From contig NZ_SOEF01000008.1 in the NCBI RefSeq assembly GCF_004366375.1, positions 1 through 64,000 of the forward strand: DNA of 64,000 bases. Direction: 5' to 3'. Positions 6,582 to 44,203 of the stretch are shown piece by piece (the first letter of the stretch is position 1; each line of letters starts with the position of its first letter). A program made the translations under genes and the position numbers. The DNA is from Halanaerobium congolense (GTDB taxonomy: Bacteria; Bacillota; Halanaerobiia; Halanaerobiales; Halanaerobiaceae). The notes beneath the pieces are model-generated. The model made no database searches and was not told where the DNA came from. It saw nothing but the letters and a program-made list of their open reading frames with translations.

Positions 6582-7361
6582 TTAGTATAATTCTACTTCT
6601 GCTGAAACTGAAACATTTATATTTACCTTTTGTTCAGCCAGTGGAACTTCTGAAAATTTAGCTGATTCAGCACTTCTTGTCATTGACCTCAAAACATCAT
6701 TACCGTAAATATTCTGCTGACCAAAACTAATTTTTTTAATTCTGTAATTTTCTTTATCTAAGTTTTCAGCCATAAAAGCTGCCTTTTCTTTTAAAGAATT
6801 CAAAGCCATAGCTGTAACTTCTTCTAAAGCCTTTTCATTACTTTCCAAGCGGTAATTTATATTTACAACTCTATTAGCCCCGGCATTTAACAATTTCCCC
6901 AGCAATACCGGAAGTTCTCCTAAATTCTTAGTACTAAACTTAATCTGATTACTAACTCGATAGAAGGTTACTTTTTCTTCTTCATCTTCATCATCTAATG
7001 ATATATAATTAGTATAAGGATAAACTCTAAAACCCTGTGTTTCAATGTTTTCTAATTCTTCTGCTTCTAGAATTGACATTAATTTACTTACAATTCTATT
7101 ATTTTCTTCAACTGCAGTTGACTGTTCTCTGCTTTCATTTTCAAAACCAAGTACTACCTCAACTACCTCCGGATCATATTCACGCTGTTGATTAATACTT
7201 AAACTAGTAGTAATATAGTCTTCTTCAACCTTTTTTTCTGCAGGCCCTTCTTTTTCTGCTGTTTGTACTGCTGGAGTATTAAAATATAGACCATTTACAA
7301 CTAAAACTGATAATAAAATTAAAGCGATAAAAACTAAAAACATTCCTAGATTTTTACTCAT
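6582..7361 (-). CDS. SIMPL domain (DUF541) envelope protein
   Basis: This 259-residue protein has one N-terminal hydrophobic segment (about 5-27) followed by a SIMPL/DUF541 domain (about 50-255), shown by the order of VVEVVLGFENES, a conserved stretch of alternating strands, VNINYRLES and a closing VNINVSVSAEVELY. Members are periplasmic or membrane-anchored and have no agreed biochemical function; some are linked to envelope stress. A GGAGGG Shine-Dalgarno precedes the ATG. It follows exbD after 181 bases that contain repeat copy 1; whether it is transcribed with the TonB operon is unclear. Confidence 0.8.
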   Translation of the reverse strand: MSKNLGMFLVFIALILLSVLVVNGLYFNTPAVQTAEKEGPAEKKVEEDYITTSLSINQQREYDPEVVEVVLGFENESREQSTAVEENNRIVSKLMSILEAEELENIETQGFRVYPYTNYISLDDEDEEEKVTFYRVSNQIKFSTKNLGELPVLLGKLLNAGANRVVNINYRLESNEKALEEVTAMALNSLKEKAAFMAENLDKENYRIKKISFGQQNIYGNDVLRSMTRSAESAKFSEVPLAEQKVNINVSVSAEVELY

Positions 7362-7487
7362 AAAAATCCCTCCATTTAACTTTTATTAATATTATTGCAT
7401 TTTTATCTTTACCCTATTTATATAATTCTAATAAGATTGTAAAATTCCTTTATTAATTTTAATGATATTTTTATAGTTTAATGATCT

Positions 7488-7543
7488 TTGACCCTCCTCG
7501 GGCAAGTCCACGCGGTTTGCAAGCAGACTTTCACTCTATCACC
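7488..7543 (-). repeat. Intergenic repeat, copy 1
   Basis: This 56-base sequence recurs at 27490-27546 with one inserted base and four substitutions; 29 bases at one end are identical. It begins right at the exbD stop and ends in GAGGAGGG, a strong Shine-Dalgarno that has no start codon nearby here. A small hairpin with arms GCAAACC and GGACTTGC can form. In the minus orientation it contains an 18-codon open frame (GTG start, MKVCLQTAWTCP beginning) that is probably not a gene. Confidence 0.75.
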
Positions 7544-7941
7544 TAATTTTCTTCACGCAAAGCAAATGAAATGTTTTGAAAGTTTTTGTTTTTAAATTTT
7601 TCAATTAAAAATACAACTGCTTCAAAATTACTTTCTTTGTCAGCATAAATCTTTATTTTATTATTTTTTTCAGCGTTTAAATCAGTTATTAAATTATCTA
7701 TATCTTGTCGACTGTACTCTTTTTGATTGTAATAGATTTTATTATTTTGATCCAAAAAGATATTAACCATCTCTACATTTTTAGTTTTTCCAATACTGCT
7801 GTCCGGTACCGTAATATTATATAGGGCTTCTTCTCCCTGCAGTGTTGAAGAAACTAAAAAGAAGATTAACAATAAAAATACAATATCGATCATCGGGGCC
7901 AGATTTAAAGTTGAGCTCTTTTTTTTAGGCTGATAACTCAT
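7543..7941 (-). CDS. exbD: Biopolymer transport protein ExbD
   Basis: This 132-residue ExbD/TolR protein of the inner-membrane motor drives TonB. It has a short cytoplasmic N-terminus, one membrane helix (about 17-36) with Asp19 in APMIDIVFLLL matching the proton-carrying aspartate of ExbD, and a periplasmic domain. It overlaps exbB by 17 bases, so translation is probably coupled. It is the last gene of the receptor-tonB-exbB-exbD operon. TolR is the main alternative, but the linked receptor and tonB favour ExbD. Confidence 0.92.
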   Translation of the reverse strand: MSYQPKKKSSTLNLAPMIDIVFLLLIFFLVSSTLQGEEALYNITVPDSSIGKTKNVEMVNIFLDQNNKIYYNQKEYSRQDIDNLITDLNAEKNNKIKIYADKESNFEAVVFLIEKFKNKNFQNISFALREEN

Positions 7942-8572
7942 TCTTTTTCAACCCCTTTTTAGTTGTCTCCTCTATTTCTTTTTTGAAAAGCATACTCTCA
8001 CTTTCCAATCTTAAATTATTCAGCTGATTGTGTAGCTTCTCAATTTTTGCATAAAAATAATGATAAAATGCTGCAGCAGGTAATGAAATTATTAAACCAG
8101 CAGCTGTCGTAAATAGAGCTTCAGAAATACCTAAAGCCATCTGTTCCGGGTTCCCCCCTAGACCTAAGACCTGAAATGTTTTGATCATTCCACTAACAGT
8201 TCCTAAAAGGCCTAAAGTTGGCGCTACCTGGGCAATAAAATTTAAAAATCCTAAACGTTTTTCTAATTCTGGCAGCTGATCAACTTCCTCCGCATCAAGA
8301 TAAAGTTTAAATTCTTCTCTACTCTGTGGATTTCTTTTTAATGTATTATAATATATTTTTGCTGCAATTCCTTTTTGATTATGCAAGATATTATCCCCTA
8401 AATTACTTTCATCAAAATCTTCAATAGCTTTTAAATATTGTTCTTTATTAATTGTTCTATAATTTAAAATAAAAACTATAGTTCTTTCAAATATTATAAA
8501 AAGCATTAAAAATGCAGCTAAAAGCAGTGGGTATGCTACAACTCCTGCAGTTTCTATAAATTCTGTAATCAT
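7925..8572 (-). CDS. exbB: Biopolymer transport protein ExbB (MotA/TolQ/ExbB family)
   Basis: This 215-residue inner-membrane proton channel subunit has three hydrophobic segments (about 10-32, 108-130 and 150-172). The conserved core APTLGLLGTVSGMIKTF is followed by ALFTTAAGLIISLPAAA, the signature of the family. It forms the motor pentamer around ExbD and transmits proton-motive energy to TonB. It sits 14 bases after tonB and overlaps exbD. The length is typical. Confidence 0.95.
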   Translation of the reverse strand: MITEFIETAGVVAYPLLLAAFLMLFIIFERTIVFILNYRTINKEQYLKAIEDFDESNLGDNILHNQKGIAAKIYYNTLKRNPQSREEFKLYLDAEEVDQLPELEKRLGFLNFIAQVAPTLGLLGTVSGMIKTFQVLGLGGNPEQMALGISEALFTTAAGLIISLPAAAFYHYFYAKIEKLHNQLNNLRLESESMLFKKEIEETTKKGLKKNELSA

Positions 8573-8586
8573 TTATCTTACCTCCT

Positions 8587-9702
8587 TTAGTTCAACTCAA
8601 ATTTTATTGGCAGATTTACTATTACTTCGATCTTTTCCCCATCTTTTTCAGCAGCTTTAAATTCCCAATCACCTACCGCCTTCAGAGCAGCCTGGTCAAA
8701 CGACTTATAACCCGAGCTTTGATTAATCTTCAAATCATGTGTTTTTCCTTCTTTATCAATTCTTAAAGAAACTATAACCCTACCCTCTATATTTCTTCGC
8801 CTTAAATTAGAAGGGTATTCTGGCTGGCTATATTTACTAACCCCTGGTTTTTTAATTGAATCTGAATTACCTTTTCTTAGATCATAAACTTTATTTTCTT
8901 GATCAGCTTTATTTTTCGCTGCAGCAGAATTATCAGAGTTACTATTTTGAATGGTCTCAACTTTTTTTACTATTTTAGCATCTTTACTATTTATTGCTTC
9001 AGCTGTGCTGCTCTGATCTGATTGAAGATCTGCAGCTTCATTTTCTTCATTAACCTTATTTGTTTCAGCTGACTCCGATTTTTTATCTGCTTCGGCTTCC
9101 AAATTAGCTATATAACTATCTAAATCAAATTCATCTTTTTCATTTTGTTCTTCCTGCTCTACAGATTCTTTTTTTTCTGAGTTATTTGCTGAGTTCTGCA
9201 TCCAGGCTGGTGGCTCAGCTGTTTTTTCTGCTTTTTCTAATTTAGTTTTTTTATCAATTTGTTCATTTACATCATTCTTTTCCTGCTGCTTATCTTCTAT
9301 ATTATTTACTTTTGATTCTTTTAGTTTGTTTTCTGTTTGTTTAACTTCTTTTTTTGGTGTTTTCTTTTCTGCTATTATCTTATTTTCAACAAAGTCTTCC
9401 TCTTCTTCAGTAATTTCATCCTTTTTTTCAGCTAAACTATTTTTATCTACTTCCGCTTCATCATTTTGAGCCTGAGCAGCTGTTTCTTTTGTTTGGGGGT
9501 TTATTTCATTATTGACATCTGGCTGGTTTTCTTCCCCAGCAAGCTGTTTAGAAGCAGATAATAATAGTTCTATTTCAACTTCTTCTTTTTTCTTAATTTT
9601 TAGATCTTCTGCCAAAAGCTTTAAAGACCCAGCTTCCAGCAGTAAGATAAGGGATAATGATAAGAGGAAGGCTGTTAGATATATTATTTTGTTATTCTTC
9701 AT
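8587..9702 (-). CDS. tonB: TonB energy transducer with long charged linker
   Basis: The N-terminal membrane anchor (about 5-25) is followed by a very long Lys/Glu/Asn/Ser-rich linker (about 40-285) and a C-terminal TonB domain (about 290-371: YPSNLRRRNIEGRV, then VGDWEFKAA). It should span the periplasm and energise the adjacent receptor. The frame opens with two earlier ATGs at 9711 and 9708, but the AAAGGA at 9711-9716 favours the ATG at 9702, 8 bases downstream, giving 371 residues. The linker is charged instead of the Pro-Glu/Pro-Lys type of E. coli TonB. It is the second gene of the operon. Confidence 0.9.
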   Translation of the reverse strand: MKNNKIIYLTAFLLSLSLILLLEAGSLKLLAEDLKIKKKEEVEIELLLSASKQLAGEENQPDVNNEINPQTKETAAQAQNDEAEVDKNSLAEKKDEITEEEEDFVENKIIAEKKTPKKEVKQTENKLKESKVNNIEDKQQEKNDVNEQIDKKTKLEKAEKTAEPPAWMQNSANNSEKKESVEQEEQNEKDEFDLDSYIANLEAEADKKSESAETNKVNEENEAADLQSDQSSTAEAINSKDAKIVKKVETIQNSNSDNSAAAKNKADQENKVYDLRKGNSDSIKKPGVSKYSQPEYPSNLRRRNIEGRVIVSLRIDKEGKTHDLKINQSSGYKSFDQAALKAVGDWEFKAAEKDGEKIEVIVNLPIKFELN

Positions 9703-9740
9703 TATCATCATCCTTTCTATAAGTTAATTTGTAGGTTTAA

Positions 9741-11543
9741 CTAGAATTTGGTGCTGAGATTAACCATAAAGTTGCGGCCTGGCATTGGATAACCGTCTAC
9801 TACTTCATAATCTTTGTTAAAAAGGTTGTTGATAGAAAATAATAAATCTATTTTCTGATTAATTATATTTATTGGAACATTAATGCTTGAATCTACAACA
9901 AAGTATGAAGGCATTTCTGTACCACTAAATCCATCAATATTATCTGAAATTAATTTACCTGAAACAAAAAATGTTTTTTCGTCTTTTTTATACTTTAAAG
10001 AAATTTTAGCATTGTGGTAAGGATTACCGGCTATTCTATCTCCATTATTATCCTGACTGTCTAAATAAGTATAGTTAAAACTGGAACTTAATTTTCTAGT
10101 GAGTTGATTATCTATATTTAGTTCTATTCCTTTAAATTCTGATTTATCATCAACATTTTTCATTGTGTTCGGAGAAACACTGTAATCATTTGTAATTAAA
10201 TTAGTTACTTCTCTATAAAAATAACTAACACTTCCCTTTCCAATTACAGAATTAAATTTTAGACCAATTTCATAATTATCACTTTCTTCAGCTTCAAGAT
10301 CTGGATTACCTTCAAAACCCGGGTAATGCCAAGCTGGATTGGCTGCATAAACTCCATATAAATCATCAAAAGTTGGGGCTCTAAAAGCTTCAGAATATGA
10401 GATAAAAGTCTTATAATTTTTATTTAAATTATAATTAATAGCAGCTTGTGGACTTAAATTAGATCCATATTCCTCATGATCATCATATCGGGCTGCAAAT
10501 ATAAGATCTAATTCAGAATTGAAATTCCAATTATCTTTTACAAATAATGCTTTATTAGTATTTTCTTTATTCCCGTTTTCTATATCTGTACTTTTTACTT
10601 CATCCCTTTTAATTTCAACACCATAATTAAATGTATGGTTATCTAAATAATTAATATTATTTAAAATAAAACCACTCTGATCTTTTTCATGTAATGAATT
10701 ACTGGAAGGGTATTCTCTCTGCCTATCATTCTTATATATTCTAAAATTTGTTTCAATCGCTTCTGTCTGTCTTTTCCAGGATAAAGATAAATTTTGCTCT
10801 TCATCATTTTGATCTAAATTATTAATTACTTTATCAGAAATATTATTATTAAAAGTAAAGGTTATATCTGAATATTTACTTATATTATTATTTATTTTCA
10901 GAAAAACATTTTCCTGATCAAAATTACTTTCTTCTAAATAAGTATCAGAACTTTTATCTAAATAAGATAAATAAATACCAAAATCATCAATTTTTTCATT
11001 ATGAGAAAGTTGGTAAGTATTAGTGTTTTCAGAACCTAAACCTAAATCTAATTTAGTGACAGAAATATCTTCAATATTTTTTGTAATTATATTTACTACT
11101 CCCCCCATAGCATTAGCTCCATATATAACTGAAGCAGGTCCTTTAATTATTTCAATTTTTTCAATATTAGCTGCACTAATAATTGATAAATCCAAACCAC
11201 CATTATGGTTATCATTATAAGGAACACCATCAAATAGGACCAAAACTTGATCAGAACTTGCTCCTCTAATTTTAACACTTTTTGTTCCAACCTGACTGCC
11301 ATTATCTTTAATATAAACTCCTGTATATGTATCCAGAAGTTCTGCTACATTCTGGGCATTACTTCCTTCAATCTCCTCCTGATCAATAACTTCAATACTA
11401 ACCGGAGTATCCATAATACTTTCCTCATAACGGCTTGCTGTCACAACAACTTCTTCTAAATCCACAACTTCTTCCTGTGCACTTACCGGCACTGCTAAAA
11501 TTAAAAGTGCTGTAAGCATGACTAAAACTTTTTGCTTTAACAT
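9741..11543 (-). CDS. TonB-dependent outer-membrane receptor, BtuB-like (probable corrinoid uptake)
   Basis: This 600-residue outer-membrane beta-barrel receptor has a signal peptide (1-22, cleaved after VSA), a TonB box (DLEEVVVTA near 28), a plug domain (about 38-150, PVSIEVIDQEEIEG, then GPASVIYGANAMGGVVNI) and a 22-strand-type barrel ending in the terminal Phe expected for barrel assembly. Substrate is inferred from the cobalamin riboswitch directly upstream. Length matches BtuB (about 600). GGAGG precedes the ATG. Its presence requires an outer membrane, as in diderm Firmicutes. Confidence 0.92.
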   Translation of the reverse strand: MLKQKVLVMLTALLILAVPVSAQEEVVDLEEVVVTASRYEESIMDTPVSIEVIDQEEIEGSNAQNVAELLDTYTGVYIKDNGSQVGTKSVKIRGASSDQVLVLFDGVPYNDNHNGGLDLSIISAANIEKIEIIKGPASVIYGANAMGGVVNIITKNIEDISVTKLDLGLGSENTNTYQLSHNEKIDDFGIYLSYLDKSSDTYLEESNFDQENVFLKINNNISKYSDITFTFNNNISDKVINNLDQNDEEQNLSLSWKRQTEAIETNFRIYKNDRQREYPSSNSLHEKDQSGFILNNINYLDNHTFNYGVEIKRDEVKSTDIENGNKENTNKALFVKDNWNFNSELDLIFAARYDDHEEYGSNLSPQAAINYNLNKNYKTFISYSEAFRAPTFDDLYGVYAANPAWHYPGFEGNPDLEAEESDNYEIGLKFNSVIGKGSVSYFYREVTNLITNDYSVSPNTMKNVDDKSEFKGIELNIDNQLTRKLSSSFNYTYLDSQDNNGDRIAGNPYHNAKISLKYKKDEKTFFVSGKLISDNIDGFSGTEMPSYFVVDSSINVPINIINQKIDLLFSINNLFNKDYEVVDGYPMPGRNFMVNLSTKF

Positions 11544-11605
11544 TAATAATTCCTCCCTGTTTTTGTCTGCTCACAGCCACCCTAGACAAAATAGGCTATA
11601 CAATA

Positions 11606-11637
11606 GAAAAAGACACCCAGGTAAATTGAGGGTGTCT
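11606..11637 (-). terminator. Riboswitch expression-platform terminator
   Basis: On the minus strand AGACACCC (11630-11637) pairs perfectly with GGGTGTCT (11611-11618) around an 11-base loop and is followed by a U-run (11606-11610). It lies between the cobalamin aptamer and the receptor start, as expected for ligand-dependent premature termination. Confidence 0.88.
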
Positions 11638-11684
11638 ATAAATATTTAAATAGCCCACAACCAGTCCTGTCTCGAAGATGGCTG

Positions 11685-11845
11685 TTATCCTCTTAGGCAG
11701 GTCTCCTGACTTTACAGCTTTACTGATTAACCTTCCCCATTATAATCTAAATGAGTGATTTTAATCAGCCTACTGATTTACAGTGGCGGACCCGTTCAGG
11801 AATTTCACCTGATTCCCTATTATCTTCCATTTAAAGAAGCACCTA
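11685..11845 (-). promoter_or_regulatory. Cobalamin (B12) riboswitch aptamer
   Basis: The minus strand has, in order, GGTGCTTC at the 5' edge, GGGAATCAGGTGAAATTCC, ACGGGTCCGCCACTGTAA, and the 3' B12-box AGTCAGGAGACCTGCC (about 11696-11711). These are the conserved blocks of the cobalamin riboswitch. An intrinsic terminator follows at 11606-11637, so adenosylcobalamin or a related corrinoid should switch off the receptor-tonB-exbB-exbD operon. The rest of 11544-12040 holds only the leader, a Shine-Dalgarno and AT-rich sequence before yraN. Confidence 0.95.
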
Positions 11846-12040
11846 AAAAGAGAACATTATTTTCTTTTCTATTACTTTTATTCTAGTAATTTTTAAAAAA
11901 TCCTTTAAATTAGTATTAATTATTTTAAAAATTTTTGAATTTAGCTTAAAATAAAACTTTGTGAAAAAATTATAAAAAAATAAAGGAGTTTCTAATTATT
12001 TACATAATTATATATTATATCTAATAAAGGAGGTTTTTTT

Positions 12041-42687: not shown

Positions 42688-42714
42688 AAATATTCACCTC
42701 TATTTTAAAAATAA

Positions 42715-43286
42715 CAGATGGTAATATAATAGATAAATGCTGTGTCATAGGTCCAGCAGGTTTTCCCCAGGAATTCCCATCTGTCACCATCTGGGAGATT
42801 TCTCTTTAAATTCCCGCCGCAGGGTCTCCCTCTACAGAGCTGGATTGCCACTAAGAACACACTTTAATCCCTATTATATCCCCTTATGGACAGTCTAGAA
42901 GTTTTCCTTTACAGCATTTAAACTATCTTCTAGCTTCTTTTGCAGTACAAGTTTCCAGCAGGTTCAACATAGAGCTGGATCCAAGCATCTATGTTTTGCT
43001 ACTGTCTCCAGTACCACTTCAAAGCAGGCTACACTGCTCAACCTTACGATCAAAGCAGGTGAACCTAGCCTTGCTATGTATTATATAACTCGACCAGGCC
43101 TCCGCGGGAAAGGGGTCAACGCCCACATGCCATTGTGGATCGCCCCAAACCCTTATCTCCCTGCAACAGCCCCCGACTGGGCGTCAGCAGCCATTACAAA
43201 GAACTTCATCGATGTGCCCGTTGACGGATTTTTAGCCCCGCCTTCAAAGATAGTATGCTGACTAGAATACTGCACCATCTGCATTT
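42715..43286 (-). ncRNA. OLE (ornate large extremophilic) noncoding RNA, probable
   Basis: The 634 bases between ispA and oapA carry no plausible gene on the minus strand but are rich in pairing. The ends pair: CCATCTG (43275-43281) with CAGATGG (42715-42721). Internal stems include GGGG/CCCC (43112-43115, 43143-43146) enclosing CCACA/TGTGG (43123-43127, 43134-43138), AGCAG/CTGCT near 43024-43038, AACATAG/CTATGTT (42966-42972, 42989-42995) and CTAGAAG/CTTCTAG (42895-42901, 42927-42933). Size (about 570 nt), position in an ispA-OLE-oapA-dxs operon and neighbour OapA all fit the OLE RNA class of anaerobic/alkaliphilic Firmicutes, which forms a membrane ribonucleoprotein. No covariance model was run. 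Confidence 0.85.
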
Positions 43287-43292
43287 TAACTA

Positions 43293-43321
43293 ATTATAAC
43301 ATATTTATTTAGACCCTTCAA
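43293..43321 (-). promoter_or_regulatory. Promoter of the OLE RNA
   Basis: On the minus strand TTGAAG (43316-43321) and TATAAT (43293-43298) are exactly 17 bases apart, directly after the ispA stop codon. The expected start (about 43286) falls a few bases before the 5' arm of the end-closing stem (43275-43281), so the RNA would begin where its structure begins. Confidence 0.7.
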
Positions 43322-44203
43322 TTAATGCTGTCTCTTTAAGATATAATCAACTAAAGCCTTTAAGTCTCCGGCTTTTTCTCCAAAAATATCTAATTCGACT
43401 TTAGCCTGAGCTGCATGTTCTTCAGCTGCCTTTTTAGCAGCTTCCAGGCCCAATAGTTTAGGATAAGTTGATTTATTTAACTCCTCATCGCGTCCTACAA
43501 CTTTACCCATTTTTTCTGTATCTCCTGTTTGGTCAAGCAGATCATCAACAATTTGAAATAAAACACCTATATTTTCTGCATAAGCCAAAAGAGCCTTTTC
43601 TGCACTGGCATCATATTCTGAACAGTAAACACCATTTAAAACAGCTGCTTTAATTAAAGCTCCTGTTTTTGCTTGGTGGACTTTCTGCATTTCCGCCAGC
43701 GTTAACTCTTTGTTTTCTGCTTCTAAATCTAAAATCTGACCGCCAACCATTCCCTGCTGTCCAGAATATTTAGCAGTATTGGTAATTATTTTAACTTTAG
43801 CTGCAGGATCTAAATTTAATCCAGCTAGTACTTCAAATGCATATGTTAAAAGAGCATCTCCAGCTAAAATTGCTGCTGCTTCTCCAAAAACAAGATGATT
43901 TGTTTTTTTACCGCGGCGGAGCTGATCATCATCCATTGCCGGCAGATCATCATGGATTAATGAATAACTGTGGATCATCTCTAAAGCAGAGCCAGCCCTC
44001 AAGGCAGCCTCATAATTTCCTGATAATAATTCTGCTGTTAATAATGTTAAAACAGGTCTGATTCTTTTACCACCAGAAAGCAGAGTATACTGCATGGCTT
44101 CTGTTAATTGAGGAGCTGTTTCCTCTTCTAAAGTCATTAACTCTTCCAAATCTTTTTCGACTTCTTCAGCTTTGCTTTTTAATATTTCCTTTATCTGCTG
44201 CAA
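43322..44203 (-). CDS. ispA: Farnesyl/geranyl diphosphate synthase
   Basis: This 293-residue trans-isoprenyl diphosphate synthase has the first aspartate-rich motif DDLPAMDDDQLRRGK (about 85-99) and the second DDLLDQTGD (about 226-234), with LLSGGKRIRPVL at 41-52. It condenses IPP with DMAPP/GPP to make farnesyl diphosphate for undecaprenyl and quinone-type lipids. It lies 2 bases after xseB, the normal xseA-xseB-ispA arrangement, and just before the OLE RNA promoter. Confidence 0.95.
   Translation of the reverse strand: MQQIKEILKSKAEEVEKDLEELMTLEEETAPQLTEAMQYTLLSGGKRIRPVLTLLTAELLSGNYEAALRAGSALEMIHSYSLIHDDLPAMDDDQLRRGKKTNHLVFGEAAAILAGDALLTYAFEVLAGLNLDPAAKVKIITNTAKYSGQQGMVGGQILDLEAENKELTLAEMQKVHQAKTGALIKAAVLNGVYCSEYDASAEKALLAYAENIGVLFQIVDDLLDQTGDTEKMGKVVGRDEELNKSTYPKLLGLEAAKKAAEEHAAQAKVELDIFGEKAGDLKALVDYILKRQH

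Follow-up and report, generated by a model that had tools for sequence, protein, structure and literature searches.

What is a complete TonB import system doing behind a cobalamin riboswitch in a Firmicute-type genome, and what does it import? The window analysed here, 64,000 nucleotides long, is part of contig C8 of a 2.83 Mb genome that is 99.9% complete. On its minus strand it carries, in order, a cobalamin aptamer, an intrinsic terminator, btuB, tonB, exbB and exbD, the four genes spanning 11543-7543 (Table 1). The first-pass annotation had described a full, consecutive receptor-TonB-ExbBD set beneath a B12 aptamer and terminator at 7543-11850. The RF00174 match, the Pfam domains and the terminator sequence confirmed this arrangement, and the coordinates proved correct to within 11 nt, the aptamer reaching 11861. 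TonB_C, MotA_ExbB and ExbD domains lie within the one operon. It is bordered upstream by a divergently oriented YraN-family gene and downstream by a gene with a SIMPL domain; a search for more RNA families within the operon found none. The gene order was seen again in 14 further genomes from the same order and so is not due to chance. The locus very probably serves vitamin B12 uptake across the outer membrane of a B12-importing Halanaerobium, as an operon that corrinoids repress.

Table 1. Features of the operon and its leader, in window coordinates.
Feature	Position	Strand	Basis or remark
Cobalamin riboswitch aptamer	11679..11861	-	RF00174, full length; L5 kissing bases GUCCG at 11791-11787, read from sequence
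P13 hairpin	11657..11685	-	Stem ACAGCCAU / UGGUUGU, loop CUUCGAGACAGGAC; conserved in 12 leaders
Putative antiterminator	11623..11662	-	Fold of pre-terminator RNA
Intrinsic terminator	11607..11637	-	AGACACCC-UCAAUUUACCU-GGGUGUCU-UUUU; in all leaders of this operon across the order
Post-terminator arm	11573..11599	-	Complementary, in nested order, to GGGCUAU, L13 and the P13 5' strand
Ribosome-binding site of btuB	11552..11557	-	GGGAGG, read from sequence
btuB-like TonB-dependent receptor, 600 aa	9741..11543	-	Only Plug domain of the genome
Barrel and Plug domains of this receptor	11543-9741	-	Pfam
tonB, 374 aa	8587..9711	-	Pfam TonB_C; transmembrane helix with S18, Ile22 for His20, Glu26
exbB, 215 aa	7925..8572	-	Pfam MotA_ExbB; Ala20 at the E. 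coli ExbB Ser34 position
exbD, 132 aa	7543..7941	-	Pfam ExbD; transmembrane Asp conserved, in LAPMIDIVF

The host genome groups with salt-loving Halanaerobium, or very near it, in the diderm Firmicute order Halanaerobiales, whose double-membraned cells with an LPS outer membrane are well established (PMC5007114). A TonB system is therefore expected here. The first-pass annotation had presented it as a surprise in a Firmicute-type genome, a view that did not hold, and we rejected the idea of a monoderm-Firmicute oddity. It also took the operon as showing that the outer membrane is functional, which fits the data but adds nothing new. For Halothermothrix orenii, the genome paper described TonB-ExbB-ExbD but no receptor (PMC2626281), and a search of G031, a single-contig genome of the order, found no Plug domain.

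The aptamer scores 103.7 bits (E 7.1e-25) with Rfam RF00174, whose gathering score is 31.5, far from the absence of an aptamer score that would have counted against the initial reading. P13 begins directly after it, and bases CGAGAC of L13 (11674-11669) can pair with the L5 bases with one A bulged, so that, as far as sequence tells, the expression platform holds both P13 and an L5-L13 kissing loop. The kissing pair is conserved; in G005 and G008 it is CCCCG with CGGAGG. The terminator lies 42 nt past the aptamer. A terminator scan limited to loops of 8 nt or fewer had returned none because the loop, UCAAUUUACCU, is 11 nt long; the hairpin and its U-run are present. In the fold of RNA that stops short of the full terminator, the 3' strand of P13 is paired to the 5' half of the terminator and the conserved loop CAAUU (GGUUG-U-GGGCUAU with AUAG-ACA-CCC-U-CAAUU). 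Both the terminator and this P13-antiterminator pairing occur in all leaders of this operon type.

The same antiterminator and L5-L13 kissing loop characterise P. megaterium metE, a repressing corrinoid riboswitch whose layout has been dissected; it regulates a different gene, and the available part of that report does not describe a post-terminator arm (PMC10653944). By analogy, the leader studied here has a repressing layout and the switch is probably repressing, with AdoCbl as the predicted ligand. At low AdoCbl, the P13 3' strand would pair with the terminator 5' half, polymerase would read through, and BtuB, TonB, ExbB and ExbD would be produced together. Powered by the ion gradient, ExbB-ExbD would drive TonB, and TonB would open BtuB; the genes for a BtuC/BtuD-like inner-membrane transporter lie elsewhere (contig C33). 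At high AdoCbl, the bound aptamer would hold L5 to L13, P13 would be closed, the terminator would form and the operon would be off.

The receptor is the only TonB-dependent receptor of the genome. Its best NCBIfam family was TIGR01779, the TonB-dependent B12 receptor, at 260.8 bits against a cut-off of 599.7, and PRK10641 gave 216.8 against 836 bits; because this is the best family but lies under the curated cut-offs, we call the protein BtuB-like rather than a BtuB equivalog. By sequence alone, Cir was the best solved structure, above BtuB. We then turned to structure, using 15 relatives to model the receptor with AlphaFold (pLDDT 80.7, pTM 0.83). The model has the TonB-dependent receptor fold with its plug, and its nearest structure by both Foldseek and VIA-align is E. 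coli BtuB (533 residues superposed at rmsd 1.9, Z 44.0). A TonB-box-like EEVVVTASR can be read from the sequence at the N-terminus, and the C-terminal Phe is invariant. With one Plug domain in a nearly complete genome and BtuB as top structural match, the term "dedicated" used in the first-pass annotation is apt. The predicted cargo of the receptor is, almost certainly, vitamin B12.

Gene content agrees with a need for import. Single family searches, the method used for all pathway genes, found neither CbiC nor CobS in the genome; both are present in several genus-mates, and G011, G014 and G016 share the pattern of the window genome. Encoded B12 users include the AdoCbl-dependent ribonucleotide reductase RTPR (386.6 bits, cut-off 340), a MetH-like protein, the B12 subunit of methylmalonyl-CoA mutase and MeaB. 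An NrdJ_Z-type class II reductase was considered; the match was weak and the enzyme proved to be the monomeric AdoCbl-dependent RTPR. Since CbiC and CobS are lacking yet B12-dependent enzymes are encoded, the cell probably must import corrinoid. Contig C33 holds a FecCD permease and ATPase pair with best matches to BtuC and a corrinoid ATPase; no BtuF gene was found beside this pair. The only other cobalamin riboswitch in the genome precedes nrdD-nrdG, a B12-independent reductase, and gene content suggests that the two switched transcripts provide an import machine and a B12-free bypass. The NrdD behind that second switch (1446 aa; L008 2662-7002, contig C4) apparently contains two intein-like insertions.

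The arrangement is widely conserved. A single receptor sequence as query found no relative; an alignment query found them. Of the 22 Plug domains of the order, 15 have a cobalamin aptamer on their own strand 261-330 nt upstream. They are spread singly over 15 of the 16 receptor-bearing genomes, and tonB, exbB and exbD follow btuB in all 15, one broken tonB included. This last gene, in the MAG G032 (L073 1090-2700), is split by a frameshift, with its C-terminal domain intact in another frame, possibly through an assembly error. Three more Plug domains lie 3.2-3.4 kb past an aptamer, at the ends of operons encoding a binding protein, FecCD permease and ATPase. Relatives with such a second btuB-like receptor, closing a riboswitch-led operon of this kind, are found at L075, L076 and L079; the window genome lost one or never had it. 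Outside the order, btuB and tonB-exbBD stand behind a cobalamin aptamer at eight loci in Atribacterota, a ninth being cut at its contig end, and btuB with tonB-exbBD genes does so in several Bacillota MAGs and one Aerophobetes MAG. A literature search returned nothing joining Halanaerobium or Atribacterota with B12-linked TonB, although such absence proves little. Because it occurs in Halanaerobiales, Atribacterota and Bacillota MAGs, the operon is a useful marker for the evolution of B12 uptake in diderms near Firmicutes.

Could the receptor instead carry another TonB substrate, such as a ferric siderophore, haem or other cofactor, with the B12 switch only tying it to corrinoid status? The sequence scores of Cir and haem receptors are near that of BtuB, but structure puts BtuB clearly ahead (Z 44, compared to 38.6 for Cir and 37.9 for ChuA), the pairing of aptamer and receptor is maintained across phyla, and the gene content is that of an auxotroph; we consider a different cargo very improbable. 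Still harder to sustain is a switch of opposite sign, in which corrinoids would turn the operon on. One natural activating corrinoid riboswitch exists, and in it P13 and the terminator share bases (PMC10653944). In the leader studied here they are separate (11685-11657 and 11637-11607), so that both can coexist; moreover, the terminator 5' half is the pairing partner of the P13 3' strand, and an importer induced by its own product would be unusual. Repression of a B12 importer is the reading we retain.

Within the motor, one contact departs from the canonical pattern. In E. coli, TonB touches ExbB Ser34 and Trp38 through its own Ser16 and His20; published work calls the His essential (PMC12215075) and lists TonB H20A as inactive (PMC11658791). 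The window motor shares with E. coli TonB-ExbB-ExbD the ExbD transmembrane Asp, the conserved ExbB Thr/Glu stretch, the TonB C-terminal domain and the Ser16 position, and differs in that TonB His20 is replaced by Ile, ExbB Ser34 by Ala, and a Glu lies one helical turn later (PMC12215075). The Ser of the Ser-x3-His in the SHLS motif is kept in all 11 Halanaerobium-type TonBs, each of which has a hydrophobic residue at the His position and a Glu one turn on. TonBs of other genera, of other phyla and of a second set on contig C3 retain a His in the helix. The residue at the ExbB Ser34 position is Ala in 11/11 Halanaerobium-type ExbBs and Ser in 21/21 other clearly aligned ExbBs. Lacking the SHLS His, this TonB belongs to a variant of the canonical motor. 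Because both changes fall on one branch, the co-change, as judged from the alignments, is a single paired evolutionary event rather than many, which suggests but does not prove compensation. A misplaced tonB start concealing an extra membrane helix was rejected, the btuB-tonB gap being only about 30 nt.

The set on contig C3 (L009 6340-8332) comprises TonB, ExbD and ExbB without a receptor, beside an SLH-domain gene, and TolQ/TolR models score best on its ExbB and ExbD. At least one TonB_C is present in 35 of the 38 genomes of the order, and weaker-scoring TonB_C genes like that of C3 occur across it, including in genomes without a TonB receptor. H. orenii, of the same order, has TonB, ExbB and ExbD clustered, and no receptor was found there (PMC2626281); its set probably corresponds to this weaker-scoring family, whereas the window set is a second, receptor-linked and B12-controlled one.

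Beyond the terminator, the leader contains an arm whose complementarity to P13 and L13 exceeded that of shuffled sequences in 12/12 leaders (no more than 3 of 500 shuffles reach it); the full leader fold has a z of -2.94. In G032, which belongs to another family, the outer stem has been swapped wholesale with pairing retained. We looked for the arm in Atribacterota leaders, Bacillota leaders and the cobalamin leaders of other genes and did not see it, whereas three leaders of this operon run alongside did show it; the arm was therefore rejected as a general feature of cobalamin leaders. As the closest leaders are near-identical, the independent evidence amounts to about four lineages. Being made after the termination decision, the arm most likely keeps read-through RNA folded in a way that prevents the kissing loop, and may lock such transcripts ON.

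Both departures admit other explanations. The C3 set could drive BtuB, its TonB and ExbB retaining the canonical His and Ser, and the His-less TonB of the operon would then be degenerate or regulatory. However, tonB, exbB and exbD of the operon are kept in every receptor-bearing genome and are well conserved, and the C3 type is present also where there is no receptor at all, which makes it an improbable motor for BtuB. The case is far more balanced for the arm, for which a mRNA-stabilising or chance structure with no locking role has a chance only a little short of even. Transcribed too late to set the termination decision, the arm is backed by few independent lineages; yet it pairs specifically with P13 and the kissing loop, that pairing outlasted replacement of the whole outer stem in G032, and other cobalamin leaders do without it.

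Placing the whole Ton system under B12 control is a variant of the btuB riboswitch theme, built from known parts. E. coli btuB and btuB2 of the diderm Firmicute Sporomusa ovata (PMC9600662) have the same RF00174 aptamer before an outer-membrane B12 receptor, with P13 and kissing loop; unlike them, the window operon includes tonB-exbB-exbD and has the post-terminator arm complementary to P13 and L13, and its control is by a terminator, whereas E. coli btuB acts on translation. Caldithrix abyssi also has a cobalamin riboswitch before btuB and no de novo cobalamin synthesis, with uptake predicted, but there the switched operon is btuB-btuF and TonB-ExbBD was not reported within it (PMC5317091). 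The layout is conserved and mostly expected, and what looks new is the His-free TonB paired with a Ser-to-Ala ExbB, together with the arm. A fuller scheme, which we offer tentatively and think unlikely to hold in all its parts, would be a working B12-only Ton motor that lost TonB His and ExbB Ser together, with the Glu one turn on partly coupling in their stead, and a dedicated arm of the read-through RNA that keeps the kissing loop from forming and fixes the transcript in the ON state. If the His-free TonB works, the view of the His as indispensable needs revising, and the ExbB co-change indicates which contact matters. A Ton motor for a single receptor, switched by its presumed cargo, would be a clean case for Ton energetics.

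Several minor features lie downstream or elsewhere in the window. The SIMPL/DUF541 gene (6582-7361, minus strand) comes after exbD in each of the ten genomes of the genus that were compared, and does not in the other genera compared. A G+C-rich stretch of about 55 nt (7485-7541) lying between exbD and this gene occurs only once in the window, and nine relatives lack it at the corresponding place. At 42702-43294, on the minus strand, is a full-length OLE RNA (448.6 bits). It has a polyprenyl-synthase-like gene (43322-44203) on one side and, on the other, a gene for a small membrane protein and then a dxs-like gene.
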